From: Lysobacter sp.
GTDB taxonomy: Bacteria; Pseudomonadota; Gammaproteobacteria; Xanthomonadales; Xanthomonadaceae
DNA length: 43,553 nucleotides
Assembly: GCA_011526085.1 (NCBI GenBank)
Contig: WYBC01000028.1
Coordinates: 1-43,553, forward strand
Direction of reading: 5' to 3'
A model generated the notes under the pieces. It ran no database searches, was not told the origin of the DNA, and worked only from the letters and a program-made list of their open reading frames with translations. The translations under genes were made by a program, and so were the position numbers. Below, in pieces: positions 1-26,591 of this stretch (the stretch's first letter is position 1; each line of letters opens with the position of its first letter).

Positions 1-1720
1 CCGCCAGCGTCGGCGTCACCGGAATCACGAAGCTCGTGCTGCCGCCCGCGGCGAGACCCGCCGCAACCGTGCAGGTCACCGTCTGGCCCGCGGCGGTACA
101 GCCCGCAGGCAGCGTGCCGATCGTCAGACCGGTCGGAATCGTGTCGGTGATCGTGCTCGACGCCGTCGTCGCGACGCCGCCGCTGTTGGTCACCTGCAGC
201 GTGTACGACGCCGGCACACCGACCGTGAACGACGCGGCGCTCGCGGTCTTCGTCAGCGTCAGCTGCGGCGGCGGCGGCGGCGAGTTCACGCACACCGCGT
301 TGTCGCCGGCGACGCCGTCTTCCTGGCCGATCGGCAACGACACCGCGTTGTAGAGGCCGCTGCCAGGCGTCGGCGTCACCGCGCAGACGGTCGGCGGCGT
401 ATTGGCGTTGAAGACGTAGCTGATGGTGACGCTGAAGGTGTGCGTCACGCCGGCGCCGATCGAGGTGCCGGCCGGCGCGAGCTGATACGCGCCGGGTCCG
501 GCCTGCGAGCCGCTGGGCGGTGCGCCCGTGCCGCTGGTGGTCCAGGCGACACCGGTTTCGGTGATGCTCGCCGGGAAAACCGGCGAATCGCTCAGTGCGC
601 CATAGGTGCCCGCGGCGGTACCGCTGTTGGTGACGGTCACGGTGTAGGTGACCGTGTAGATCCCGGCGACCGACGGGCCCGTGGCAGTACCGGCCACCTT
701 GGCGATGTTGATGCTGGGACGGTTCACCGGCGTCGGACCGACCGTGTCGGTGCAGCGCGCGGTTGCGGGACAGGTCGGATCGCCACCACCGGTGACGCTC
801 GCGGTATTGGTGACGCTGGCCGCCGCGCTCGCGGTCGGCGTGACCGGAATGACGAAGCTGGTGCTCGCGCCCGCAGCCAGGCTGGCGACGGTGCAGGTCA
901 CGGTCTGGCCTGCGGCGGTGCAGCCCGCAGGCAGCGTGCCGATCGTCAGACCGGTCGGAATCGTGTCGGTGATGGTGCTCGACGCGGTGGTCGCGGAGCT
1001 GCCGGTGTTGGTGAGCTGCAGCGTGTAGCTGGCCGGCACGCCGACCGTGAACGACGCCGCGCTGGCGGTCTTCGTGAGCGTCAGCTGCGGGCGCGTGACC
1101 GTGGTGTTCACGCTGCCGGTGTTGCCGCCGGCACAGGAAATGGGCGCGCCCGAGCAATCGGGATCGCTCACGCCGGTGGGCGGAATGACGGTGGCGGTGT
1201 TGGTGATGCTGGCCGCGGCGGCGGAGCCGACGGTGCAGGCGATCGTGAGCGTGGCGTTGCCGCCGGACGCGATGGCCACGCCGGTCCAGGTGCCGGTGCC
1301 GGTGGCGCCCGAAGCGATGGTGCCGACGGTGAACGTGCCCGCGGAAGGCGTGAAGCTGCAGCCGGTGAGGCCGGCGGGCAGGCTTTCCTCGATGGAGAAG
1401 GTATTCGAGGCGAGGATGGCGCTCGGGCCGCCATTGCTCACGGTGAGGGTGTAGGTCAGAAGCTGACCCACCGCGACCGGGTTCGGGTTGGCGGTCTTGA
1501 CGAGACTGAGGTTGGTGGTCCGGGTGATGGCGTCGCTGTCGGTCGCCGAATTGTTCGCGTTGTTCGGGTCGGTCACGGTCGCCGGTGGCGTGATCGTGGC
1601 GCTGTTGACCGCGTTCTGCGACCACGCGAGCGGACTCGCGGCGAGCGCGAGGCAGAACACGATGGTTGCGGCGATCGAACGGCGCGTGGTTCCGGCGATG
1701 CGAGTCGAATTGGCCAGCAC
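1..1720 (-). CDS. DUF11-repeat secreted surface protein, N-terminal part (partial, runs off left edge)
   Basis: Read on the minus strand, the frame is open from a GTG at 1718-1720 to the window edge (about 573 codons). The GTG follows AAGGGGAAG, a good ribosome binding site. Residues 1-34 form a signal peptide: TRR, then a hydrophobic stretch ending ASPLAWS-Q. After this come DUF11-type beta-sandwich units, with motifs such as LSLVKTANPNPVAVGQ and QLTLTKTASAASFTVG. Paired cysteines occur in each unit (for example AGCTAAGQTVTCTV). The unit at about 855-1090 and the one at 34-290 are near copies; between them is a divergent unit (SINIAKVAG). DUF11 proteins are generally exported adhesin or stalk-like proteins, often carrying a C-terminal anchor, which here lies outside the window. 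A role in surface attachment is inference. The frame has no internal stop in the parts I translated. Confidence 0.85.
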   Translation of the reverse strand, partial: MLANSTRIAGTTRRSIAATIVFCLALAASPLAWSQNAVNSATITPPATVTDPNNANNSATDSDAITRTTNLSLVKTANPNPVAVGQLLTYTLTVSNGGPSAILASNTFSIEESLPAGLTGCSFTPSAGTFTVGTIASGATGTGTWTGVAIASGGNATLTIACTVGSAAAASITNTATVIPPTGVSDPDCSGAPISCAGGNTGSVNTTVTRPQLTLTKTASAASFTVGVPASYTLQLTNTGSSATTASSTITDTIPTGLTIGTLPAGCTAAGQTVTCTVASLAAGASTSFVIPVTPTASAAASVTNTASVTGGGDPTCPATARCTDTVGPTPVNRPSINIAKVAGTATGPSVAGIYTVTYTVTVTNSGTAAGTYGALSDSPVFPASITETGVAWTTSGTGAPPSGSQAGPGAYQLAPAGTSIGAGVTHTFSVTISYVFNANTPPTVCAVTPTPGSGLYNAVSLPIGQEDGVAGDNAVCVNSPPPPPQLTLTKTASAASFTVGVPASYTLQVTNSGGVATTASSTITDTIPTGLTIGTLPAGCTAAGQTVTCTVAAGLAAGGSTSFVIPVTPTLA

Positions 1721-2261
1721 TTGATGCTTCCCCTTGGCACGTCCGCCCCGACGCGTTCGTGCCCCTGTCCCGATGACACGGCACCGCGATTCCCCCGGTG
1801 CCGCTGCTTAGTTGTGATACGGCTTCATGCAACGCCCGGATGCGGATCCGGTGGCGCACAACGGGAACCAGGCGACTTCTCGCCGGGCCCCAGCCTCACG
1901 CCAATGTGACGGTTAGCAAATTTCGAGCCAAGATGCTTTTTCTGCGACTGGAGCGTCGCTATCCCCATGATCCGGCTCGCAATCAGGGCAGCCTGAACGT
2001 TGCCCACAGGCGTGCTGCCCGTCTGCATATTGGGTCACATTTTGGACGTTTATGCCAACAGCGTCCCGATTTCAGGGCCGATTCGTGCGGATCGGCGGAC
2101 CTCAACCGTGGACTGGTCGACGGTTCGCGCCCGCTCCGCCCGCCGCCCAACCCCCTGTTCCTGCTAGAATTTTCGCTCTACTTTCCGCGCCATCCTTCCG
2201 TTTTCGCCACACCGCCACACGCGAGCGCCGTCCATCGGTGCCTCCAGGGACGCCAGAGCTC
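1721..2261. other. Divergent intergenic region
   Basis: These 541 bases separate the divergent DUF11 and indolepyruvate oxidoreductase genes. Short open frames cross it in several phases, but none has a ribosome binding site or recognisable protein. It must hold both promoters; only the one for the rightward gene is recognisable (2162-2170). The stretch around 1915-2060 is more AT-rich than its surroundings. Confidence 0.5.
2162..2170 (+). promoter_or_regulatory. Extended -10 promoter candidate for the indolepyruvate oxidoreductase
   Basis: TGCTAGAAT matches an extended -10 element (TG, one base, then TAGAAT, 5 of 6 to consensus) at the start of an AT-rich patch. No good -35 hexamer lies 17 bases upstream, as is tolerated with extended -10 promoters. 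Transcription would start near 2177, giving a leader of about 85 bases before the ATG at 2262. Confidence 0.45.
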
Positions 2262-5200
2262 ATGACCAGCCCCACCGACCTTCACGCGCCGGCCGGCGCC
2301 CCCTCGCCCGCCGCCGACCACCCGGCCGTCGATCGGGATTACACCCTCGACGACAAGTTCACCCGGACCGAGGGGCGGATCTATCTGTCGGGGGTCCAGG
2401 CGCTGGTGCGACTGCCGTTGATGCAGCGCCTGCGCGACCAGGCGGCCGGGCTGAACACCGCCGGCTTCGTCAGCGGGTACCGGGGCAGCCCGCTCGGCGG
2501 GTTCGATCTGGAACTGTGGCGGGCGAAGAAGCATCTGGCCGAGGCCGGCGTGAAATTCACGCCCGGGCTCAACGAAGACCTCGGCGCGACCATGGTCTGG
2601 GGCACGCAGCAGACCAATCTGTTCCCGGGCGCCAAGGTCGATGGCGTCTTCGGCATGTGGTACGGCAAGGGTCCGGGCGTGGACCGCTGCGGCGACGTGT
2701 TCAAGCACGCCAACGCCGCCGGCACCTCGAAGTTCGGCGGCGTGCTCGCGCTCGCGGCCGACGACCACGCCTGCCGCAGCTCGACCCTGCCGCACGGCAG
2801 CGAGGGCGAATTCCAGTCCGCGCTGATGCCGGTGCTGAACCCGGCGGGCGTGCAGGACATCCTCGACATGGGCCTGATCGGATTCGCGATGTCGCGTTAC
2901 ACCGGTCGCTGGGTCGGCTTCAAGACGATCGCCGAGACCGTCGAATCCTCGGCCTCGGTCGACGTCAATCCGCTGGCGCTGCGGATCGTCACGCCCGACG
3001 ATTTCGAGATGCCGCCGGGCGGCCTCAACATCCGCTGGCCGGATCCGCCGCTCGATCAGGAAATGCGCCTGCATCGCTACGCGGTGAAGGCCGCGCAGGC
3101 GTTCGCGCGCGCCAACCGGCTCGATCGCGTCGTCATCGATTCGCCGAACGCGCGCCTGGGCATCGTCACCACCGGCAAGAGCTACCTCGACGTGCTGCAG
3201 GCGCTGGAATATCTCGGCCTCGACGCGCGCGCCTGCGCCGATCTCGGCATCCGCGTGTACAAGGTCGGCATGACCTGGCCGCTGGAACCGATGGGCATCC
3301 GCGCGTTCGCGCGCGGGCTGCAGGACATCCTGGTGGTCGAGGAAAAGCTCAGCTTCATCGAAAGCCAGATGAAGGAACTGTTCTACAACTTCGACGGCAT
3401 CAATCAGGACAACAGCCGCCCGTCGATCGTCGGCAAGTTCGACGAGAGCGGCGAGTGGATCCTGCCCAGCACCAACGAGCTGACGCCGGCGCGCATCGCC
3501 GGCGTGATCGCGCGCCGCATCCAGCGCTTTCACGACTCCGAACACATCCGCGGCGTGCTGCGCTGGATGGAGGAGAAGGAAGGCGAGCTTGCCCTGCCCC
3601 GCGCCAGCTTCCCGCGCGTGCCCCACTACTGCAGCGGCTGTCCGCACAACACGTCGACGAAGGTGCCGGAAGGCTCGCGCGCGCTCGGCGGCATCGGTTG
3701 CCACTACATGGTCACCTGGATGGACCGCAACACCGACACCTTCACCCACATGGGCGGCGAAGGCGTGACCTGGTGCGGCCAGTCGGCGTTCACCGAGAAC
3801 GAACACGTCTTCCAGAATCTCGGCGACGGCACCTATTTCCATTCCGGTTCGCTGGCCATCCGCCAGTCGATCGCGGCCGGCGTCAACATCACCTACAAGA
3901 TCCTCTACAACGACGCGGTGGCGATGACCGGCGGCCAGCCGGTGGACGGCACGCTCACCGTGCCGCAGATCGCCCAGCAGATGCGCGCCGAAGGCGTGTA
4001 CACCATCGCGGTGGTCAGCGACGACATCACCAAGTGGACGCGCCAGCGCTATCTGTTCCCGAACGACGTCGAATTCTTCGACCGCCGCGAACTGGACGAC
4101 GTGCAGAAGAAGCTGCGCAAGGCCAAGGGCACCAGCGTGCTGATCTACGATCAGACCTGCGCCACCGAGAAGCGTCGCCGGCGCAAGCGCGGCAAGCTGC
4201 CGGACCCGCAGAAGCGGGTGGCGATCAATTCGCTGGTGTGCGAAGGCTGCGGCGACTGCGGCGTGAAGAGCTTCTGCGTGTCGGTGCTGCCGAAGGAAAC
4301 CGAATACGGCCGCAAGCGCGACATCGACCAGAGCAACTGCAACAAGGACTACAGCTGCGTCGAAGGGTTCTGCCCGAGCTTCGTCACCGTGCACGGCGGC
4401 CAGTTGCGCAAGGGCAAGAAAGCCAATGCCGCGGATCGTCTGAACGATCTGCCGATGCCGACCTTCGCCAGCGATCTCGACAGGCCCTGGAACATCCTCA
4501 TCACCGGCGTCGGCGGCACCGGCGTGGTCACCATCGGCGCACTGCTCGGCATGGCCGGGCATCTCGAGCGCAAGGGCGCGACCGTGCTCGACCAGACCGG
4601 CCTCGCCCAGAAGGGCGGCGCGGTCACCACCCACATCCGCATCGCGAAGACGCCCGACGACATCCATGCCGTGCGCATCGCCGCCGGCGAGGCCGACCTG
4701 GTGCTCGGCTGCGACATGGTCGTGGTCAACGACTACTGGGCGCTGTCGAAGATCCGCGAAGGCCGCAGCCACGTCGTGCTCAACAGCTACGAGGCGATGC
4801 CCGGCACCTTCACCACCCGTCCGGACATGCAGTTCCCCGCGGCCGACATCGTCTCCGCGATCCGCACCGCGCTCGGCGGCGACGCGCCGGCGTCGGCACT
4901 GCAGCTCATCGACGCCACCCAACTCGCGACCGCACTGATGGGCGACGCCATCGCCGCCAACCTCTTCATGCTCGGCTACGCCTGGCAGCGCGGGCTGGTG
5001 CCGATCTCCTTCGACGCGATCATGCGCGCGGTGGAACTCAACGGCGCCGCGGTGCAGATGAACAAGACCGCGTTCGCCTGGGGCCGGCTCGCGGCGATCG
5101 ACCTGCCCGCGGTGGTCGACGCCGCGGGCATCGTCAAGAACGCGCCGACCGCCGCCGAAGCGACGCCGCATGCGCTGCCGCTGCTGGCGCCGACCGCCTC

Positions 5201-13277: not shown

Positions 13278-19419
<6,142 letters not shown>

Positions 19420-19646
19420 GCCGAACGCGAACGACGCGTCGCGGATGTCGGCGGGCGGATGCCTGCCGCATCAACGCTTATCACTGTCATCCCGAACGCG
19501 GGCAAGGCCCGCGGAGGGATCTGCTGTTTACGCGAAAAGAAGAACCTGTTGGTTTTGACAGGTTGGGTTTCGTTGACAAGGGTTTGGAGGGGGGCGGAGA
19601 CTGCGGTTATGGCCCAAATAGAGGGCTAATCACAAGTTAGGCCTTT
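19420..19646. other. Entry to the orphan-gene island: dispersed repeats, no gene
   Basis: These 227 bases after gltD hold two dispersed elements. The first, 19486-19526, starts GTCATCCCGAACGCGGGC and contains a GCGGGC/GCCCGC stem; a related element occurs in reverse at 22317-22346. The second, 19542-19578, starts GAACCTGTTGG and recurs with changes at 21736-21772. The gap ends with CTAATCACAAGTTAGGC just before the next ATG. Base composition falls towards the right end. Confidence 0.6.
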
Positions 19647-20249
19647 ATGACAGGATATCAATACACTACGGAGTGGCTCGGCACGCTTGGTGATAACGAG
19701 CGCAACATCGTTTTAGGTGCAGTAGGAAGCTTAGTTGCCACTTCAATTGTTGTACTGATTTCGCTCTCTGTTCAGCTCGTTAGTCAAGCAATCTTGCTAA
19801 AGAACAGAACGGGATTCTCATGGCTTCCACGAGAGTGGCTCTGCGAATGGGAACCTGAGTCCGAGTGCCAACCGGATTGGGTTAAGGAACGCTTGGTCAT
19901 TCGCCGATTCTTCGGGACTCTGATTCTGAAGAACAAACAGAACTCAGCTGAATATCGATACAGAGCTGAAGCCCGCTTGGCCTCAGGGGAACGGCTTGAC
20001 GGCAAGTACTTACTTGGAACTTGGTATGACTTGCGGGAAGGAGCCAGTGCTGCGGGTGTCTTTATGTTGACAATCGAGCATAGAGGGGGATTTCTATACG
20101 GCTACATTGTTGGTCCCAACGATGAGGGCCCGATAATGTATGGAAAGTACGTAGTCGGAAGAACCGAGCATGACATTCAGCAGGCGAAACGCATGCTTAG
20201 ATTCTCCGACTCCATCTCGCCACTGAAAAGCTCGACCGAGACAGTCTAA
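19647..20249 (+). CDS. Orphan single-pass membrane protein, island gene 1 (200 aa)
   Basis: I recognise no family. One strong hydrophobic helix lies at about residues 24-52 (IVLGAVGSLVATSIVVLISL then VQLVSQAILL). It is followed by a tryptophan-rich segment (FSWLPREWLCEWEPESE) and a soluble region of about 120 residues with beta-rich motifs: YRYRAEARLASGERLDGKYL, GTWYDLREG, and MLTIEHRGGFLYGYIVGPND. The pattern 'ligand-exposed beta domain after one helix' suggests an envelope or sensor role, but this is only a guess. The ATG begins four bases after GTTAGGC and has no Shine-Dalgarno sequence. Codon use is much more AT-rich than in gltD next to it, pointing to acquisition by transfer. Confidence 0.75.
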   Translation: MTGYQYTTEWLGTLGDNERNIVLGAVGSLVATSIVVLISLSVQLVSQAILLKNRTGFSWLPREWLCEWEPESECQPDWVKERLVIRRFFGTLILKNKQNSAEYRYRAEARLASGERLDGKYLLGTWYDLREGASAAGVFMLTIEHRGGFLYGYIVGPNDEGPIMYGKYVVGRTEHDIQQAKRMLRFSDSISPLKSSTETV

Positions 20250-20270
20250 AAGTTGCATGCAGAACAACTG

Positions 20271-20319
20271 GGGTCAGAGTGAACCTTATCTATATCATGC
20301 CAGAAATCCACTCTGACCC
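20271..20319. repeat. Inverted repeat GGGTCAGAGTG
   Basis: GGGTCAGAGTG (20271-20281) and its exact complement CACTCTGACCC (20309-20319) flank 27 AT-rich bases. Similar GGGGTCAGAGT pairs are dispersed in many gammaproteobacterial genomes. It lies between island genes 1 and 2 and may fold as a hairpin in the mRNA. Confidence 0.7.
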
Positions 20320-20372
20320 GGATTTCTCACGAGTTGGGGTCTAATCACAAGTTATGTTTCTTATCCACATCA

Positions 20373-20843
20373 ATGAGGGCTTCTGTGAACGATTTAATTA
20401 CTGCTGTAGGCGATTGGCCAGTTCTATTGCAAGGCGCTATCGGGTCGGGCCTCTTTTGGGTATTTTTATTTTTCGGTCAAAAAATAACTAGCGCCATTAT
20501 TGCGAAGTACTCTTTTCATTCTTCGATCTCCAGGCGAAGTCATCTGATAAGCAAAATGTACAAATATTCAGCATTTTCTGGAGTTGAACCCGAAAACTCA
20601 GCATTTTATGTAGCCACCTTAATCTATCGATCAACTCGCCATCTTTTTAAAGGCCTCATGTGGCTCTCGCTTGGGCTTATATTTCAGTCATTTTTTTCGA
20701 TTTCCGGGATTATCGGTTTTGCAGGATGTCTATATTATCTTTTCAAAGCCTATGATGTCGTTAAACCGTATCCTGAGGATATAGACATTCAAGCTGAACT
20801 TGCCAAAGTAGAGAAAGAATTGTTCGGCGAGCAAGAAACCTAA
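20373..20843 (+). CDS. Orphan membrane protein, island gene 2 (156 aa)
   Basis: No family is recognised. It has hydrophobic segments at about residues 16-40 (LLQGAIGSGLFWVFLFFG) and 95-130 (GLMWLSLGLIFQSFFS then GIIGFAGCLYYLF), and a charged C-terminus rich in Glu/Lys (EDIDIQAELAKVEKELFGEQ). The composition is strikingly AT-rich: bases 20461-20520 contain only 17 G or C, against GC-dominated neighbours. The frame also opens with TTG at 20334, but ATG at 20373 is preferred; no good ribosome binding site is seen for either. CTAATCACAAGTTA just upstream repeats the sequence before island gene 1. The stop codon abuts the 26-bp repeat unit. Confidence 0.7.
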   Translation: MRASVNDLITAVGDWPVLLQGAIGSGLFWVFLFFGQKITSAIIAKYSFHSSISRRSHLISKMYKYSAFSGVEPENSAFYVATLIYRSTRHLFKGLMWLSLGLIFQSFFSISGIIGFAGCLYYLFKAYDVVKPYPEDIDIQAELAKVEKELFGEQET

Positions 20844-20965
20844 AAGGCCGTAAGGCGCATACCCAACTCCCGTAGGGCGCATAAGCGCAGCGTCATGCGC
20901 CAGCCTTTCTCGGCCGTCATGGCGCATGACGCCTTCGGCTTATGCGCCCTACCGGCTTCGCGACA
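20844..20965. repeat. 26-bp unit plus GTAG-headed REPIN (copy A of a 123-bp direct repeat)
   Basis: The 26-bp unit (20844-20869, starts AAGGCCGTAAGG, ends ACCCAACTC) follows the stop codon of island gene 2 directly. Then 20872-20952 is an inverted pair headed GTAGGGCGCATAAG at each end, each arm itself containing a GCGTCATGCGC-type hairpin. The whole block, with flanking CGGCTTCGCGACA, recurs almost unchanged at 22171-22293. Confidence 0.85.
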
Positions 20966-20970
20966 AGCTC

Positions 20971-21038
20971 GTAGGCTGGGTCATCGACCCAGCAGTCCTC
21001 GTTGTCGGCAAGTGCTGGGTGCAGAGCACCCAGCCTAC
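20971..21038. repeat. 68-bp GTAGGCTGGGT double-hairpin element, copy 1
   Basis: It begins GTAGGCTGGGT and ends with its complement ACCCAGCCTAC. Internally it has CTGGGTCATCGACCCAG and GCTGGGTGCAGAGCACCCAGC as two hairpins. A second copy lies at 23379-23446 with only about four differences. This is the architecture of two inverted REPs (a REPIN). Confidence 0.85.
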
Positions 21039-21047
21039 GAACTACGG

Positions 21048-21097
21048 TTCTTGGCTATACCGCAGACAAGTGGGTGGCGCATGTCGACTTCACGTAA
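21048..21097 (+). pseudogene. Fossil 3' end of a copy of island gene 4
   Basis: Fifty bases match the last 50 bases of island gene 4 (22123-22172) at 47 positions, including the in-frame stop (TAA). They encode the C-terminal residues LGYTADKWVAHVDFT. Everything upstream is replaced by the 68-bp double-hairpin element, so this is the truncated remnant of a duplicated gene. Confidence 0.85.
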
Positions 21098-21171
21098 GTC
21101 GCCGCTGCCCGACCATTCACTCGATCCGATTTCGCTTCGCGGATCGGCCCGATTCACACATCGAGCACCAC

Positions 21172-21639
21172 ATGAATAACCTGTCGCCGGATGGAGCCAA
21201 GGTACGATCAAGGAAGCGATGGCGCTATGTCGTGTGTGCCCTCGCCTTCCTTGTCCCGTTCAAGGTCACCATCGTTCCCGAATGGCGGTTGGTTGTCGTT
21301 GATGAGGGCGGAAGCCCGATGCAAGCAATCGGCGTACGCCAGAGTTGGCAGCATTACACGCTCGAGGCAGAGGGCCATGAAGACGATGCCCGGACGGATG
21401 CTTCGGGAGTTGTAGTTTTCCCGGAGAGAAGCACATGGGCCAATGGCTTGCGGTTCGTTGTTGGCGCGATCAAAAGCGCCGAAGCAGGAGTGCACGCGGG
21501 CTTTGGTCCGTCAGCATTCATCATGACGCTCGCCGGCCCCTGCTTCGGCGGGTCGGTTGACTACGAAGGCGCAGAACCCCTGCCGGACACCCTTGTCATG
21601 CGCCCTTCCGGAACAGCGAGATGTCGGAAAGAAAAGTAA
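21172..21639 (+). CDS. Orphan membrane-anchored protein with Ig-like domain, island gene 3 (155 aa)
   Basis: A basic N-terminus (KVRSRKRWR) precedes one hydrophobic helix (about residues 21-37, YVVCALAFLVPFKVTIV). The rest resembles a small carboxypeptidase-regulatory or Ig-like beta-sandwich: VVVDEGGSPMQAIGV, WQHYTLEAEGHEDD, then RTDASGVVVFPERS. Such a domain would be periplasmic. Two cysteines near the end (GPCFGG and ARCRKEK) may pair. The ATG at 21172 is the first after the repeat cluster; the frame is open further upstream, but that part reads through the repeats and the fossil gene tail. Function unknown. GC content is closer to the genome than in genes 1 and 2. Confidence 0.72.
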   Translation: MNNLSPDGAKVRSRKRWRYVVCALAFLVPFKVTIVPEWRLVVVDEGGSPMQAIGVRQSWQHYTLEAEGHEDDARTDASGVVVFPERSTWANGLRFVVGAIKSAEAGVHAGFGPSAFIMTLAGPCFGGSVDYEGAEPLPDTLVMRPSGTARCRKEK

Positions 21640-21642
21640 ATC

Positions 21643-21706
21643 AAGGCTGTAAGGCGCATACCCAACTCTCGTAGGGCGCATAAGCCGAAGGCGTCATGCG
21701 CCCTAC
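21643..21706. repeat. 26-bp unit plus single GTAGGGCGCAT hairpin
   Basis: The 26-bp unit (21643-21668) starts three bases after the stop of island gene 3. It is followed by a single hairpin at 21671-21706, GTAGGGCGCATAAGCC to GCGCCCTAC. This is a shortened version of the longer pairs at 20872 and 22200. Confidence 0.8.
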
Positions 21707-21735
21707 CGGGCTGGATTTCTTCTTGCTCAAGAATA

Positions 21736-21772
21736 GAACCTGTTTGTTTTGACAGGCCGGTTTGCGTTGACA
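21736..21772. repeat. 37-bp repeat GAACCTGTTTG, second copy
   Basis: Related to 19542-19578: both have GAACCTGTT, GTTTTGACAGG and CGTTGACA in the same order and spacing. Each copy lies upstream of an island gene (1 and 4). The two TTGACA-like hexamers have no convincing -10 partner. The remaining bases to 21839 hold nothing else recognised. Confidence 0.55.
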
Positions 21773-21839
21773 GAATTTGGGGACAAATGGAGACTCGGGT
21801 CGACGCCCCGATTTGGGGTCCAGCCGCAGTCAGGTAGTT

Positions 21840-22172
21840 ATGGGCTTCTGGTCTCTGCTAGCTGCAATCCTCTATGGCGGTGTGTTCGCACTCTTTACCT
21901 TCTGGCGCGTGGATGTCGTTGATTCGCAAACGGCCCGCGGCATCATTGCTGCATTTCTGCTTGGTCTATATTGTGGCGTCGTCACCTTCGGCACCTCGGA
22001 CGAAAAGCGCTCGCTGTCCCTGCCCGGTCAAACAGTCTTAGGCGTCGCTTTGGCGTGTGCCATAGCCGCGTTGTTCGACGCTTCGTCTGAGGGGTACATT
22101 GTGGCTGTTCTGGTCGGACTTATTCTTGGCTACACCGCAGACAAATGGGTGGCGCATGTCGACTTCACTTAA
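21840..22172 (+). CDS. Orphan small polytopic membrane protein, island gene 4 (110 aa)
   Basis: About four hydrophobic segments cover most of the protein: MGFWSLLAAILYGGVFALF, GIIAAFLLGLYCGVVTFG, TVLGVALACAIAALF and IVAVLVGLILGY. A short charged loop (TSDEKRSLS) lies between the second and third. The C-terminus YTADKWVAHVDFT is also preserved as a fossil at 21048-21097. No family is recognised; it resembles small inner-membrane proteins of unknown function. The ATG overlaps a GTTATGG motif and is preceded by CAGGT; a TTG at 21777 is a less likely start. The stop codon abuts the 26-bp repeat unit. Confidence 0.72.
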   Translation: MGFWSLLAAILYGGVFALFTFWRVDVVDSQTARGIIAAFLLGLYCGVVTFGTSDEKRSLSLPGQTVLGVALACAIAALFDASSEGYIVAVLVGLILGYTADKWVAHVDFT

Positions 22173-22293
22173 AGGCCGTAAGGCGCATACCCAACTCTCG
22201 TAGGGCGCATAAGCGCAGCGTCATGCGCCAGCCTTTCTCGTCCCTCATGGCGCATGACGCCTTCGGCTTATGCGCCCTACCGGCTTCGCGACA
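22171..22293. repeat. 26-bp unit plus GTAG-headed REPIN (copy B of the 123-bp direct repeat)
   Basis: This is an almost exact copy of 20843-20965, beginning in the stop codon of island gene 4. The 26-bp unit is at 22172-22197 and the inverted pair at 22200-22280. The few differences lie in the centre (CGTCCCT instead of CGGCCGT) and just after the 26-bp unit. The two direct copies bracket island genes 3 and 4. Confidence 0.88.
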
Positions 22294-22316
22294 GTTCGTC
22301 TTTGAGTCAATCGAAA

Positions 22317-22372
22317 GCAGGCCCCTCGCCTGCGGCTCGGGATGACAAGGCTGTAAGGCGAATATCCAACTC
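22317..22372. repeat. Reverse GTCATCCCGA element joined to a fourth 26-bp unit
   Basis: 22317-22346, read on the minus strand, begins GTCATCCCGAGCCGCAGGC and is related to the forward element at 19486. Directly attached is a diverged 26-bp unit (22347-22372; AAGGCTGTAAGGCGAATA then TCCAACTC). This copy is not beside a stop codon; it precedes island gene 5. Confidence 0.65.
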
Positions 22373-22399
22373 ATGCAGGATGCATCAGGCCCTCAAACC

Positions 22400-23332
22400 A
22401 TGACATTCATTCATTCCATATCAAAGCCAGTCGCAGTGACTCTCGCCTCTGCACTGGCAATTCTCGCGACTCCTTTTGCGTCAGGGCAAACCGTTGCAAG
22501 CGCAAAGGCCGACATTCTGTCAACCTACGATTTCGAGCCATCAAGCATGAGCTACGACGATCAGGCGCGACGAGCACCGTCACTGAGCGCATTATGGGAT
22601 CGGTCCCGTAAATCTGCAGAAATCTACGCCGCGGCCCTGCGAGAAGAGCTTTCCGCTCCAAACAATCGAGAACAGTTGTATTGCGACGGTGGAATGCTCC
22701 TACTCGACATGTCCAAGACTCCGGAGGATCTGGCGCTTGGCACCGCTTCGTTGCGGAAGTGCTCCCTCGCGGAGATACAACACACTCCCTACTTTTACAC
22801 ACTCCATCGGCTGGCAAGCCGCGGAGTCGACACGTTCGGCCTGCAAGAACGTATTCTTGAAAAACCCAATTACTCCGTCTTCATTGTTGAACATGCTCTG
22901 ACCCTTGGGCAGGACTATGCGTTTTTGTATCCTCTACTGGTTCAAGACGAGACGATCTATGTGCCGAAGCTGTTGTCTCGCCTCGCAACGGAAGAGGATC
23001 CGGTGGCCCAAAAATCACTTGTTCTTGCACTTTGGTACGCTGCAACCCCAGAATCGGAGGATGCACTCCGCAAGCTTGTGTCCGACCCCAGGACGTCTTC
23101 ACTTGCTGCCGGACACGCCCGAACATTGCTCGACTCGTTGAATCAGGTACGGGTCTGGAAGCGTAACGAGGCAGATCTGAAGGAGCTGCTCTCCTCGGTG
23201 GACGCAAGTTCATCAATGAAGGTTTCCGAACTTAGGGCCAAGCGTCGGGAGCGAATGCGCTCAGTCAGCGATGAGGCACTTTACGACCTTGACGCGTACA
23301 CAGCGCTGATCTACCGGGCACGTGGAAATTGA
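22400..23332 (+). CDS. Orphan exported protein, island gene 5 (310 aa)
   Basis: A typical signal peptide (MTFIHSISKPVAVTLASALA, then ILATPFASG-Q) suggests periplasmic export. The mature part is helical throughout, with segments such as DALRKLVSDPRTSSLAAGHARTLL and KSLVLALWYAATPESEDA that look like degenerate HEAT-type repeats. Two cysteines (QLYCDGG and LRKCSLAE) may form a disulphide. An upstream in-frame ATG at 22373 would add nine residues and blur the signal peptide, so 22400 is preferred; no clear ribosome binding site is seen. No family is recognised with confidence. A perfect 11-bp hairpin follows the stop. Confidence 0.78.
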   Translation: MTFIHSISKPVAVTLASALAILATPFASGQTVASAKADILSTYDFEPSSMSYDDQARRAPSLSALWDRSRKSAEIYAAALREELSAPNNREQLYCDGGMLLLDMSKTPEDLALGTASLRKCSLAEIQHTPYFYTLHRLASRGVDTFGLQERILEKPNYSVFIVEHALTLGQDYAFLYPLLVQDETIYVPKLLSRLATEEDPVAQKSLVLALWYAATPESEDALRKLVSDPRTSSLAAGHARTLLDSLNQVRVWKRNEADLKELLSSVDASSSMKVSELRAKRRERMRSVSDEALYDLDAYTALIYRARGN

Positions 23333-23334
23333 AC

Positions 23335-23373
23335 GGCGCACCGATCATTGCCGCGTGAGCCCATCGGTGCGCC
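23335..23373 (+). other. Stem-loop after island gene 5
   Basis: GGCGCACCGAT (23335-23345) pairs perfectly with ATCGGTGCGCC (23363-23373) around a 17-base loop, two bases after the stop codon. There is no T run, so it is a poor intrinsic terminator. It could be half of an older mobile element. Confidence 0.65.
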
Positions 23374-23378
23374 AGCTC

Positions 23379-23446
23379 GTAGGCTGGGTCATCGACCCAG
23401 CAGCCCTCGGTGTCGGTAAGTGCTGGGTGCAGAGCACCCAGCCTAC
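23379..23446. repeat. 68-bp GTAGGCTGGGT double-hairpin element, copy 2
   Basis: Near-identical to 20971-21038, including the flanking GAACT and CGG on the right. It is followed by CGTCATTCAGTCGTTAGGC (to 23479), which resembles the right end of an integron attC site, and then by island gene 6. Confidence 0.85.
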
Positions 23447-23506
23447 GAACTGCGGGGCGGCGTCATTCAGTCGTTAGGCATCATGTCACTTTCACAAGGA
23501 GCTCTG

Positions 23507-23791
23507 ATGGCCAGCAATTTGATGTACCAGTGCGAACGCCGAACTCAGTACAAGGTTGATGGTCAGTACGACTGGCGATGGAAAGAAGTTCCTGTCTCCG
23601 AGGCAATCGGCTCAGACGGAAATAACATACGTTGCGTGCATTGCCATGGTGCAGTTCGCATTCATCAACAGCAGGTGCCGCACGGACCCCAAGATCACGT
23701 CGAGCACCTGTCCCGCCACGATTCTGAAAACTGCAGGGGTGGTCATTATTTCAAAGGTGAACACCGCCTCTCTACCCAACCTGTTGAGTAG
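23507..23791 (+). CDS. Orphan small Cys/His-rich protein, island gene 6 (94 aa)
   Basis: AGGAG six bases before the ATG at 23507 fixes the start (an in-frame ATG at 23483 is less likely). The protein has Cys9, Cys43, Cys46 and Cys76 and many histidines: RCVHCHGAVRIHQQQVPHGP, then DHVEHLSRHDSENCRGGHYF. The CVHC pair with C9 and C76 could bind zinc. No signal peptide or membrane segment is seen, so it is probably cytoplasmic. Similar small proteins of unknown function seem familiar from other proteobacteria, but I cannot name the family. The stop is followed after four bases by another 26-bp unit. Confidence 0.75.
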   Translation: MASNLMYQCERRTQYKVDGQYDWRWKEVPVSEAIGSDGNNIRCVHCHGAVRIHQQQVPHGPQDHVEHLSRHDSENCRGGHYFKGEHRLSTQPVE

Positions 23792-23795
23792 GCGC

Positions 23796-23821
23796 AAGGC
23801 CGTAAGGCCCTCATCCAACTC
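23796..23821. repeat. Fifth 26-bp unit
   Basis: A diverged copy (AAGGCCGTAAGGCCCTCA then TCCAACTC), four bases after the stop of island gene 6. With the units at 20844, 21643 and 22172 it makes four of five copies lying zero to four bases behind a stop codon. Confidence 0.7.
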
Positions 23822-23842
23822 CTGCGAAGTACATAAGATCTC

Positions 23843-23950
23843 GTAGGGCGGGCTCAAGCCCGCCGAACGGGAAAGCGACCTGCCATCAAGCGCCACTCGG
23901 GCCACAGGTCGGTGGCGGCTTCGATCATGGCGGGCTTGAGCCCGCCCTAC
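23843..23950. repeat. GTAGGGCGGGCT inverted pair (REPIN)
   Basis: GTAGGGCGGGCTCAAGCCCGCC at the left and its complement at the right (ending in CGCCCTAC at 23950) flank 60-odd bases. Each arm folds on itself (GGCGGGCT/AGCCCGCC). It separates the island from folE and may also terminate folE transcription, since it lies just after the folE stop. Confidence 0.85.
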
Positions 23951-23954
23951 GCGC

Positions 23955-24602
23955 TCACCGCGCGCCGCGCACCCGGATGAGTTCGAGGAATTCGGAACGG
24001 GTGCGGGCGTCGTCGCGGAAGCCGCCGAGCATTTTCGAGGTGACCATGCTGACGCCGCGCTTGTGGATGCCGCGGGTCGTCATGCATTCGTGCGCGGCTT
24101 CGATCACCACGCCGACGCCGCGCGGGTGCAGGGTGTCTTCGATGCAGCGGGCGATCTGCGCGGTCATCTTTTCCTGCACCTGGAAACGACGGGCGTAGGT
24201 CTCGACGACGCGGGCGAGTTTGCTGATGCCGACGACGCGGCCGTTCGGCAGGTAACCGACATGCGCCTTGCCGATGATCGGGGCCATGTGGTGTTCGCAG
24301 TGGCTTTCGAATTCGATGTCGCGCAGCACGACCATCTCGTCGTAGCCCTCGACTTCCTCGAAGGTGCGCTTGAGGTATTCCTCGGGATCGACGGCGTAGC
24401 CGCTGAACCAGTCGGTGTAGGCCTTGGCGACCCGCTTCGGGGTATCGATGAGGCCTTCGCGGGTCGGATCGTCGCCGGCCCAGCGCAGCAGCACGCGGAC
24501 CGCGTCCTCGGCTTGGCTGCGGGTCACGCCGTGGCGCGCGTCACCGGTCGGTGCCGCATCGGAGGCGGTGGAAGGGGCGTCGTCGTGATCGGCGGAACAC
24601 AT
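23955..24602 (-). CDS. folE: GTP cyclohydrolase I (215 aa)
   Basis: It converts GTP to 7,8-dihydroneopterin triphosphate, the first step of folate (and pterin) synthesis. The zinc and catalytic residues are present: [10 protein letters not shown] supplies a Cys and His, and [13 protein letters not shown] the second Cys. Other family motifs are [38 protein letters not shown] and [13 protein letters not shown]. An acidic, Ala/Thr-rich stretch of about 25 residues precedes the core. It is the last gene read leftwards in the recC-recB-recD direction, 63 bases after recD, with a stem-loop in between. Confidence 0.97.
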
Positions 24603-24635
24603 GGGCGGGGTCTCCGGCTGAAGGCGGGCATGTTA

Positions 24636-24661
24636 GCGCGGTCGGCGATGGCCGACCGCGC
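24636..24661 (-). other. Stem-loop between recD and folE
   Basis: A perfect 11-bp stem, GCGCGGTCGGC (24636-24646) with 24651-24661, has a GATG loop. No T run follows on the minus strand, so it may only weakly terminate or may stabilise the recD end of the transcript. Confidence 0.65.
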
Positions 24662-24665
24662 GAGT

Positions 24666-26591
24666 CTACGAACCGAACCGTCCCGCGGATGCAGGCGAGA
24701 GCGCACGCAATCGAGCGTCGAGCCCGGAATCGCGCCAGGTGCGGCGTTCGAGCGCCCGTTCCAGGGCTTCGGGCGCGGCCCAGAGCACCACGCGGCGGCG
24801 GGCGCGGGTGAGCGCGGTGTACAGCAGTTCGCGCGAGAGCACCCGGGCGTCGGCATCCGGCAGCACCAGCAGCACGCGGTCGAACTCCGAGCCCTGCGCC
24901 TTGTGCACGGTGCTGGCGTAGGCCGAGGCGTGCATGGGCAGTTGCGCCGGTCGCCACGCGCGGAGGCCCTGCGCGGTGTCGAACCAGACCGCGGCATCGC
25001 CCTGCGCGCCGCGCCAGACCACGCCGAGATCGCCGTTGTAGAGGCCGTGGCGTTCGCTGTTGGCGCCGATGGCGATCAGGCGGCCGTGGAAATACGGCAC
25101 GCGCGCGCCGAGCTCGGCCGCGCACCACGCGTTCCAGTGTTCGGCGCCGAACGGGCCACGGCGCAGCGCGGTAAGCAGGCGCAGCGACGAGGCGCGCTGC
25201 AGCGCCTGCGCGGGATCGTCGGCGTCACGCACGGCCTCGAACGCGGGCAGCGCTTCGCGACGCACCACCTCGGCCAGCGGCGTCGCATCGCCGCGATGCC
25301 AGGCCAGCGAGTCGCCGCCATCGCGCAGCCGGGCCATGACCGCGTCGCGATCGTCGCGCTGCAGCGCGTCGGCCAAGGCCTGCAGCGTCGCGGCATCGGC
25401 CTGGCGCCAGCCGCGCAGCAGATGCACGCGCGCACCGGCGAGCGGAGCGTCGTCGTCCGGAGCGTCGTCGCGCGCGGGCACGGGCGTGTCGAGCCAGACC
25501 GACACCGCCTGCGCATCCGCGGGCGGCAGCGCGAGACCGTCGCCGCTGGCGGCGCAGAGGCCGCCGAGCACGTCGCCCGCCTCCACCGCCGGCAACTGAT
25601 CCGGATCGCCGAGCAGCACCAGCGTCGCGGTCTCCGGCACCGCGGCGACGAGTTTCGCCATCAGCGGCAGATCGACCATCGAGGCTTCGTCGACGACGAC
25701 CAGATCGAACGGTAGCGGATGGCGCGCGTCGTGACGGAACGACACCCGCCCCGGCTGCGTGCCGAGCAGGCGATGCAGGGTGCGCGCCTGTCGCGGCATG
25801 GCGTCGGCGATGTCGGCATCGAGACGACCGGCGGCGAGATCGGCGCGGATCACGCCATCGATCGCTTCGCCCAGCCGCGCCGCGGCGCGGCCGGTGGGCG
25901 CGGCCAGCGCGATTCGCGGCGGCTGCGCGCCGCGCGATCGCGCGGCCATCCATTGCAGAGCCAGCAGCCGCGCCACGGTGGTGGTCTTGCCGGTGCCGGG
26001 GCCGCCGGTGATCAGCAGCAGGCGACGACGCAGCGCCATCGCCGCGGCCAGCGCCTGGCGGTCGATGTCGCCGTGCGGGGCGGCAGCGTCGCGCGGGAAC
26101 AGACGACGCAGCGCGGATGAGAGCGCGGCCGTATCGTCGTCGCCGGTGACGATCCGCGCGCGTCGATGCAGCGATTCGGCCAGAGCCTGCTCGTAACGCG
26201 CGTAGCGCCGCAGCGCGATGCGTCCGTGCGCGAACGCGAGCAGCGCGCCCGCATCGCCCGCGTTCTCCGCGTGCGCGACGCAGGCGCTGGCGACGAGCGC
26301 GGCGGCCCAGTCGCCGGCGTCCGGCAGCTGCGCGCTGGTGCCCAGCGCATCCAGCAGCCGGTCCGCATCGTTCAGCGCGAAACTGCTGTGTCCCAGCGCG
26401 ACCGCGCGCATCGCCAGTGCGCCGGCCAACGCAACGGTGGCCGGCGCGCGCAGGCGATCGCGCAGCAGCGCGGCGAAGTCGACATCGATCCCGCGCAGCG
26501 CGCCTTCGGCGTGCAGACGCAGCAGCGCACGCGCGGAGATGGTATCGGCATGCGTCGCGTCGGGATGGGTCGCAGGCAGGCTGCCGCTCAT
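24666..26591 (-). CDS. recD: RecBCD exonuclease V, RecD subunit (641 aa)
   Basis: This is the 5'-3' helicase subunit of RecBCD. The Walker A motif GGPGTGKTTTVARLL lies near residue 195, followed by APTGRAAARL. The Walker B-type motif VVVDEASMVDLPLM lies near 300 and LLGDPDQLPAVE near 325. The C-terminal STVHKAQGSEFDRVLL and YTALTRARRRV are superfamily 1B motifs V and VI. The ATG (26589-26591) overlaps the recB stop by ATGA, so the start is well fixed; the frame continues upstream only inside recB. The length is normal for RecD of this group. Confidence 0.96.
   Translation of the reverse strand: MSGSLPATHPDATHADTISARALLRLHAEGALRGIDVDFAALLRDRLRAPATVALAGALAMRAVALGHSSFALNDADRLLDALGTSAQLPDAGDWAAALVASACVAHAENAGDAGALLAFAHGRIALRRYARYEQALAESLHRRARIVTGDDDTAALSSALRRLFPRDAAAPHGDIDRQALAAAMALRRRLLLITGGPGTGKTTTVARLLALQWMAARSRGAQPPRIALAAPTGRAAARLGEAIDGVIRADLAAGRLDADIADAMPRQARTLHRLLGTQPGRVSFRHDARHPLPFDLVVVDEASMVDLPLMAKLVAAVPETATLVLLGDPDQLPAVEAGDVLGGLCAASGDGLALPPADAQAVSVWLDTPVPARDDAPDDDAPLAGARVHLLRGWRQADAATLQALADALQRDDRDAVMARLRDGGDSLAWHRGDATPLAEVVRREALPAFEAVRDADDPAQALQRASSLRLLTALRRGPFGAEHWNAWCAAELGARVPYFHGRLIAIGANSERHGLYNGDLGVVWRGAQGDAAVWFDTAQGLRAWRPAQLPMHASAYASTVHKAQGSEFDRVLLVLPDADARVLSRELLYTALTRARRRVVLWAAPEALERALERRTWRDSGLDARLRALSPASAGRFGS

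Follow-up and report, generated by a model that had tools for sequence, protein, structure and literature searches.

Six Foreign-Looking Genes between gltD and folE of a Lysobacter Genome Are Probably Decayed Integron Gene Cassettes

Introduction

What has gathered a row of six genes between gltD and folE on a 43,553-nt contig of Lysobacter sp. (GenBank assembly GCA_011526085.1, contig WYBC01000028.1)? The whole of this contig is referred to below as the window; in our numbering it is contig C23 of genome G000, L numbers denoting fetched loci. The first-pass annotation, made from the sequence alone, described the genes (1 to 6, counted from gltD) as orphans parted by palindromic repeats and acquired separately, at a site that repeatedly collects single genes by a mechanism not encoded in the window. 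We consider it probable that this island consists of decayed integron gene cassettes placed by an integron integrase (IntI) encoded on another contig. The integron is the likely collector, given that the genome has an integrase of its own on contig C20 and that relics of attachment (att) sites precede gene starts in the island. These relics had been overlooked by the annotation, as had a 50-nt duplicate of the gene 4 3′ end. Coordinates are those of the window, and features are on the plus strand unless stated otherwise.

Probable Relics of attI and attC Sites in the Island

Two models were used, R1 for attC and R2 for attI, the latter derived from nine genus attI sites. The best R1 match and the best R2 match of the 43.5-kb window both lie in the island, immediately ahead of gene 3 and gene 4, respectively, each with an E value of about 1e-5. 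The former is an attC relic matched over the full 60 positions (21107–21166), located between a gene 4 fragment and gene 3 and recovered with E = 1.5e-5 by R1 and E = 2.6e-5 by nhmmer; the next R1 match in the window has E = 0.14. The latter, heading gene 4, is a relic of attI with the cassette promoter (Pc) at 21767–21833 (R2 E = 1.5e-5 in the window, nhmmer E = 6.7e-5).

Two more attI-like heads precede genes 2 and 1, the evidence falling in the order gene 4, gene 2, gene 1. Before gene 2, the 3′ part of an attI-like site (20330–20354) contains the second-best R2 match of the window (20330–20346, E = 0.2) and is identical to the attI of genus member G009 in 22 of 25 aligned columns, a score reached by none of 1000 shuffles. 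The relic heading gene 1 (19573–19645, from TTGACA to GTTAGGC) is the weakest of the three and was recognized by a shuffle test: 0 of 1000 shuffles reached the score with which the regions upstream of genes 1 and 4 align, and the same result (0/1000) was obtained when this relic was aligned with the attI on contig C34 of the same genome (L240). R2 did not list it at up to E = 10 on the plus strand of the window. In front of gene 6, a 3′ half of attC ending in GTTAGGC overlaps the end of a repeat element (23439–23479; nhmmer E = 0.0075 with the long attC model and E = 0.0097, at 23452–23479, with the short one). The reversed window contained nothing better than E = 0.26, and R1 at up to E = 10 did not list this half in the window. 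Considered as units bounded by attC sites with a GTTRRRY start, genes 3 and 6 are preceded by attC relics, genes 4, 2 and 1 by attI-like sequences and gene 5 by neither.

Relatives of Island Genes among Cassettes

The six island proteins were joined into one query and searched against 395 genomes of the family and, in a second search, 369 genomes of the class, with at most two candidates scored per genome. Matches were retrieved in seven of the 395 genomes, the own one included. Relatives of gene 4 are present in G073 (76%) and G358 (50%), and those of gene 6 in G038 (69%) and G010 (67%). In G073 and G038 they stand among small genes parted by attC sites (R1 E down to 2.7e-23), and in G358 the relative lies directly behind an attC (R1 E = 1.6e-13). 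In G010, the gene 6 relative sits as a single insert amid other genes; behind it comes the initial portion of an attC, which nhmmer recovered over 63 positions with E = 2.2e-11 and R1 did not list at E ≤ 0.05. The relatives of genes 4 and 6 are thus cassettes, and two of the six island genes have relatives in attC-bounded arrays elsewhere. We infer from position, strand, GC content and, for genes 1, 2 and 3, the relics before them that genes 1, 2, 3 and 5 came as cassettes too.

Weak matches to the gene 5 part of the query were found in two further genomes (G167 and G211). In the class search, the gene 3/gene 5 stretch of the query had three marginal hits, with E values between 7.6e-4 and 0.003, and relatives of gene 5 (50%), gene 1 (29%) and gene 2 (32%) were recovered. 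Nowhere else were the six genes found together by this search of limited sensitivity; it missed the own copy of gene 3, so that the absence of gene 3 elsewhere is not demonstrated and the other absences are indicative only. Scans of the six proteins against Pfam and NCBIfam reached no cut-off, and to this extent the view of the genes as orphans without a family stands; it does not stand for genes 4 and 6, the only ones for which relatives were found among or next to attC sites. None of the six proteins matched in a PADLOC scan at E ≤ 0.5, which leaves known anti-phage families unsupported.

These relatives bear on a different origin, in which unrelated genes arrived through ordinary horizontal transfer, or through the activity of repetitive extragenic palindromic (REP) elements and their REP-associated tyrosine transposases (RAYT), the att-like sequences being due to chance. 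REP elements in four of the five gaps between the genes would suit such an origin, as would the four genes out of six that have no demonstrated cassette relative. Against it, the best model matches of 43.5 kb fall just before island gene starts, REP elements occur at many other places in the genome, and two of the genes have relatives placed amid attC sites in other genomes, so that the explanation fails for genes 4 and 6. We regard it as barely credible. A plasmid search with the whole island as a block gave no support for an origin there.

The Integron of the Genome and attI Heads without an Integrase

Matches to TIGR02249 (IntI) above the cut-off are present in 9 of 11 genomes of the genus. 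In G000, IntI is encoded by an uninterrupted open reading frame (ORF) of 339 amino acids on C20 (8604–9623; 486 bits against a cut-off of 265), and an attI and a cassette array follow on the other strand from intI, up to the contig end. R1 found at least 32 attC sites in this genome, at least 18 of them on C20 and at least nine on C1. No TIGR02249 match is listed for C23, and no intI stands beside an attI there, which supports the supposition that the mechanism is not encoded in the window. On C20 (L164, ca. 470–3770), several similar stretches of about 300 bases with no gene evident by eye lie between attC sites of about 116 nt. In the integron of G005, a tRNA-like gene (L154, 2709–2799), scored by ARAGORN as a tRNA of undetermined type, lies directly behind the attI (2612–2690), at the position of the first cassette.

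In the 11 genus genomes, R2 retrieved 31 attI matches at E ≤ 1e-4. Nine of these are the sites beside full-length intI from which the model was built, and they match by construction. The other 22, distributed over 11 genomes, are not beside a full-length intI; two lie near intI fragments (G001:C48 and G002:C15) and a third (G002:C94) keeps part of intI. Seventeen control loci, 212 kb in all, contained no R2 match up to E = 1. Twenty lone loci were read, namely 19 of the 22 matches and a weaker one (G000:C34), and in 16 of them an attC (R1 E ≤ 0.05) is found behind the head on the same strand. Homology to the integron leader sets in no more than about 50 bases from the first position of the integrase model in 11 of these 20 loci; in L251 it starts within intI, and in the remaining eight it does not start before the promoter region. 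One gene behind the lone head L252 of G008 has 93% protein identity to a gene of the C20 array of G000. attI heads without an integrase thus exist in the genus; in the part of the open-licence literature covered, no report of such heads scattered over a chromosome was noticed.

One may ask whether the island once held a complete integron, or several, from which intI was deleted in place, the present genes being the remains of the array. Such a loss looks true at other loci. A left neighbour of the head on contig C25 of G000 (897 bp, 80–83%) is common to the places in G005 and G009 that keep intI, and contig C23 of G008 has the neighbouring sequence of the C20 integron of G000, with leader, attI and cassettes kept and no intI over the cut-off. 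Given these shared neighbours, in-place loss of intI is the probable origin of some heads. In addition, a rough leader tree, built on about 85 nt and with unsettled bootstrap, places some lone heads (for example L241 in G005 and L251 in G002) closest to the integron head of the genome that carries them. At the island itself, however, no piece of intI is listed on the contig, and the attI-like heads are more numerous than in a single integron. In-place deletion of intI is also at odds with the glmU locus described below: two species have different cassettes behind its attI, and neither has intI there. For the island, we consider it unlikely.

Fixed Places with Changing Cassettes

Three lone heads, L243 (G005), L250 (G001) and L254 (G009), occupy the same place behind a gene that we named glmU by our own reading of protein and DNA, not by family search, and their left flanks share 91–93% DNA identity. 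In six other genomes, the same interval is short (74–302 bp in five of them and 776 bp in G002) and has no attI, attC or REP match; two genomes were not comparable at this place, and the right flank of G001 ends at the contig end. G001 and G009 can be aligned at 79% over 530 columns; the alignment starts where glmU ends, runs across the intI-less leader and stops at the GTAGTTA of attI. Behind that attI, the first three genes of the two species have no mutual match (tblastn E ≤ 1e-8 over half the length), and the fourth is common to both (85%). Capture in trans predicts just this pattern, with the cassettes exchanged at an attI beside which neither species has intI. The comparison suggests that IntI may capture cassettes at intI-less attI heads.

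A similar place is defined by the left flank of L239. Here, the interval measures 59–406 bp in six genomes, and G000 and G009 have longer ones; the stretches fetched from G005 and G001 do not extend to a right flank. R2 matches are present in G000, in G005 and, at E = 0.037, in G001. On the far side of the gene that borders this interval on the right, G007 has an attI head (L298, 3518–3586) and G008 an attC (L288, 3848–3956), and both sides of this gene may therefore be used.

A palindrome, CTGT-N8-ACAG, occurs twice in the 43.5-kb window, once ahead of the gene 1 head and once ahead of the gene 4 head, the background being 2 in 164 kb. Both copies, found by pattern count and as repeat D8, have the form CCTGT-N8-ACAGG (19545–19562 and 21739–21756). 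It is located upstream of only 4 of the 20 lone heads. At the L239 place every one of the four filled loci has it and the six short ones lack it; behind glmU, two of three filled loci have it and the six short ones again lack it. The surroundings of the nine integron heads contained no copy. Between palindrome and leader, a stretch of about 190 bases is common to L243, L244, L250 and L254, and weakly to L241 and L242; it was not found at E ≤ 0.01 elsewhere in the fetched loci. These data are only suggestive of a unit, consisting of head, left arm and palindrome, that might have been copied as a whole. We do not claim the palindrome as a LexA box, since neither of the two Xanthomonadaceae LexA proteins recognizes the beta/gamma motif, according to an excerpt of PMC3108266.

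Proposed Origin of the Island

In the sequence of events that we propose, each gene would have arrived as a cassette and been set next to an att site by IntI; the three attI-like heads (genes 4, 2 and 1) and the two attC relics (genes 3 and 6) would be what remains. The sites would later have decayed, and REP elements would have landed in the gaps, partly against or inside attC. With the sites decayed and the gaps occupied by REP elements, the cassettes are probably fixed now. Excision and insertion of cassettes by IntI at the island are predictions from sequence.

Several observations weigh against a cassette origin with capture in trans. The island keeps just one full-length attC match and one significant attI match, and the tool itself describes the models' E values as rough. 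The whole-genome R1 search, in which 150 of 7225 candidates were scored, omits the island attC relic (27.9 bits versus 40 bits for the weakest one listed), and in the whole-genome R2 search the attI relic of gene 4 has E = 0.0015. No att relic was found before gene 5. Family and class searches revealed no cassette-array relative for genes 1, 2, 3 and 5, and no attC match up to E = 0.05 is near the relatives of genes 5, 1 and 2. Plasmid searches with genes 1, 2, 4 and 6 produced no match. Ordinary cassette insertion does not give a series of attI heads, and action of IntI in trans on heads that have no intI of their own is something we infer from comparison only. Finally, G001 is now without an intI above the cut-off, the intI match of G009 contains a stop, and the genus genomes are mostly drafts.

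Single cassettes might instead have been inserted by IntI at non-classical sites (attG), with no attI involved. Insertion at attG is mentioned in excerpts of PMC12901181 and PMC12444791, the latter a Xanthomonas survey in which it is discussed, and the attC relics that genes 3 and 6 carry as their only att sequences would agree with it. Since it would be expected to bring neither an attI nor a cassette promoter, while attI-like heads are present in the island, we judge this course highly improbable.

The decayed cassettes of the island can be compared with known systems, as these are described in excerpts of the cited papers. The relics are of the same attI and attC types as those of the genus integrons; the island differs from an integron in having no integrase at the site and several attI-like heads. 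Clusters of attC sites lacking an integrase (CALINs) have been proposed to be degraded integrons (PMC9024848) and have been reported outside the ilvD locus in about 50% of Xanthomonas genomes, with seven loci in well-sampled species (PMC12444791). Like a CALIN (PMC9024848, PMC12444791), the island has cassettes outside the intI locus in one orientation. Unlike a CALIN, it has attI-like heads, and with one full attC match and one 3′ half it fails the default rule of at least two attC sites without intI. By the account in the excerpt of PMC9024848, IntegronFinder 2.0 recognizes attI sites of class 1 only. The delta-attI cassettes known from mobile integrons (PMC12901181) are similar in that pieces of attI are found beyond the platform; there the attI piece replaces the attC behind a gene, whereas here heads precede genes at scattered loci.

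For the genus as a whole, we tentatively picture the integron as a distributed system, a proposal to which we give slightly less than an even chance. One IntI would serve scattered attI-Pc sites that lie at fixed chromosomal loci without an integrase and go on exchanging cassettes in trans, some of the heads, with their conserved left arm and palindrome, looking as if copied; the island would be a fossil site of this kind, with about three heads in a row, sealed by REP elements. The island is ordinary in its parts, and the genus-wide pattern is less ordinary. If intI-less heads still capture, a single integrase could extend and express cassettes at many chromosomal places, the capacity for capture would be larger than intI counts suggest, and some islands of orphan genes between housekeeping genes would have a concrete origin.

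Composition of the Island and Its Genes

The sharp drop in GC content noted between gltD and folE was confirmed: it is 0.47–0.58 per 1 kb against about 0.70 in the surroundings, and we counted 17 G/C in 20461–20520. Six ORFs are present, all six in the common orientation seen in integron cassettes, with GC 0.40–0.59 and GC at third codon positions 0.38–0.63. Gene 1 (19647–20249, 200 amino acids, GC 0.50) encodes a protein with one N-terminal hydrophobic stretch, gene 2 (20373–20843, 156 amino acids, GC 0.40) one with hydrophobic stretches, gene 3 (21172–21639, 155 amino acids, GC 0.59) one with an N-terminal hydrophobic stretch, gene 4 (21840–22172, 110 amino acids) a small membrane protein and gene 5 (22400–23332, 310 amino acids) an exported-looking protein, all as judged by eye. 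Gene 5 also has a weak match to HEAT_2 (20.9 bits, cut-off 27.7). The product of gene 6 (23483–23791, 102 amino acids) is Cys/His-rich, and its relatives are found in an array and as a lone cassette. Codon adaptation is 0.10–0.26 in the six genes versus 0.71–0.79 in gltB, gltD and folE, and their GC is close to that of five measured cassettes of the C20 array (0.46–0.56). The genes do look like single-gene units acquired one by one, as had been suggested. A known RNA element was rejected, Rfam giving no match up to E = 1 over 17500–25500.

REP Elements between the Genes

The first-pass annotation had palindromes separating all genes. A repeat scan of the island revealed direct and inverted repeats between genes (D1–D5, D8, I1–I3 and others), and REP elements were identified in four of the five gaps (after genes 2, 3, 4 and 5); the separators are of several kinds. 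By their sequence, the main palindromes are GTAG-type REP elements, with the GTAG head on a palindrome in inverted pairs. After gene 2, a paired element of family A (20844–20955), which has copies elsewhere in the genome, is followed by a paired element of family B with the core GCTGGGT (20966–21047) and by the 50-nt remnant of another copy of gene 4, comprising its 3′ end with the stop codon (21048–21097; repeat D5, 94%). A single family A element (21643–21709) follows gene 3. After gene 4 there are a paired family A element (22172–22283) and a diverged remnant of the family A 5′ part (22347–22389; repeat D1, 79%), and after gene 5 a paired family B element (23374–23455). Behind gene 6, another diverged remnant of the family A 5′ part (23796–23838; repeat D1, 67%) adjoins a GTAG-headed inverted pair of a third kind (23837–23956; inverted repeat I3). 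The gap between genes 1 and 2 contains a different inverted repeat, recognized by eye (arms 20270–20281 and 20309–20319).

A search with the island DNA retrieved 42 matches in the own genome, self-match included, and matches in all 11 genus genomes; most of the matches listed are REP repeats, which are thus multi-copy. The 26-nt start of family A has four matches in the own genome at up to three mismatches, all inside the island. On contig C9 (L009), family A REP elements (C9:51556 and C9:52228) flank an ORF at 868–1371 (plus strand) that matches the solved TnpA-REP 4er8 with E = 8.3e-50, an arrangement typical of RAYT genes. Pfam Y1_Tnp is above its cut-off at two other places in the genome, and a second C9 gene is below it. 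The two TnpA-REP/Y1-type genes of L009, 868–1371 (plus) and ca. 1501–1896 (minus), are oriented toward each other and enclose a REP pair.

In view of copies at many other genomic places and a TnpA-REP-like gene elsewhere in the genome, we rejected REP elements as the collector, and the idea that the palindromic blocks were the collecting mechanism is not supported; they are an overlay. In their GTAG head, inverted pairs, position downstream of genes and TnpA-REP-like gene flanked by the same REP, they correspond to the GTAG REP elements and bacterial interspersed mosaic elements (BIMEs) associated with RAYT (PMC3733652, PMC2817692), and no basic difference is apparent. Here, copies abut or overlap attC in three places: REP begins two bases after the first 62 attC positions in L012, ends four bases ahead of attC in L255 and, in the window, overlaps the attC half before gene 6. 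Insertion of REP could thus have fixed cassettes, and such junctions suggest a simple way for mobile cassettes to become immobile. The link is not general, as a 161-kb control set had no REP and only 2 of the 20 lone attI loci have one; among the own-genome REP matches listed outside the window, none is within 10 kb of an attC listed by R1 in this genome.

The gltD–folE Interval in Related Genomes

The island is flanked by gltD (17926–19419), assigned from the ORF list and its neighbourhood in relatives, and by folE (23955–24602, minus strand), assigned from the ORF list. Within the stretches fetched from named genomes, folE is downstream of gltD in 23 of 80 loci and upstream in one; none was seen in 56, 16 of which extend less than 10 kb to the right. 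Thirteen of the 23 gaps between the gltD and folE matches are below 1 kb (28–793 bp). Five genus members have intervals of 2.2 kb (G009), 3.0 kb (G003), 4.6 kb (G005), 6.3 kb (G008) and 7.5 kb (G004), all filled with other sequence; in G006, folE is not within 10 kb of gltD. The contents of the interval thus differ between related genomes, and the island appears specific to this genome among those seen, at a place that varies in the genus. In close relative G006 (L040), two attC-like sites (857–963 and 1612–1722) were detected by nhmmer about 8 kb upstream of gltD, the second also by R1. Behind gltD in the window, a further repeat at 19482–19528 (GTCATCCCGAACGCGGGC...) has copies in the own genome and in the genus. 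Long genes that we read as RHS-type, by our own reading and not by family search, fill the interval in G004 and G008 (L147 and L045).

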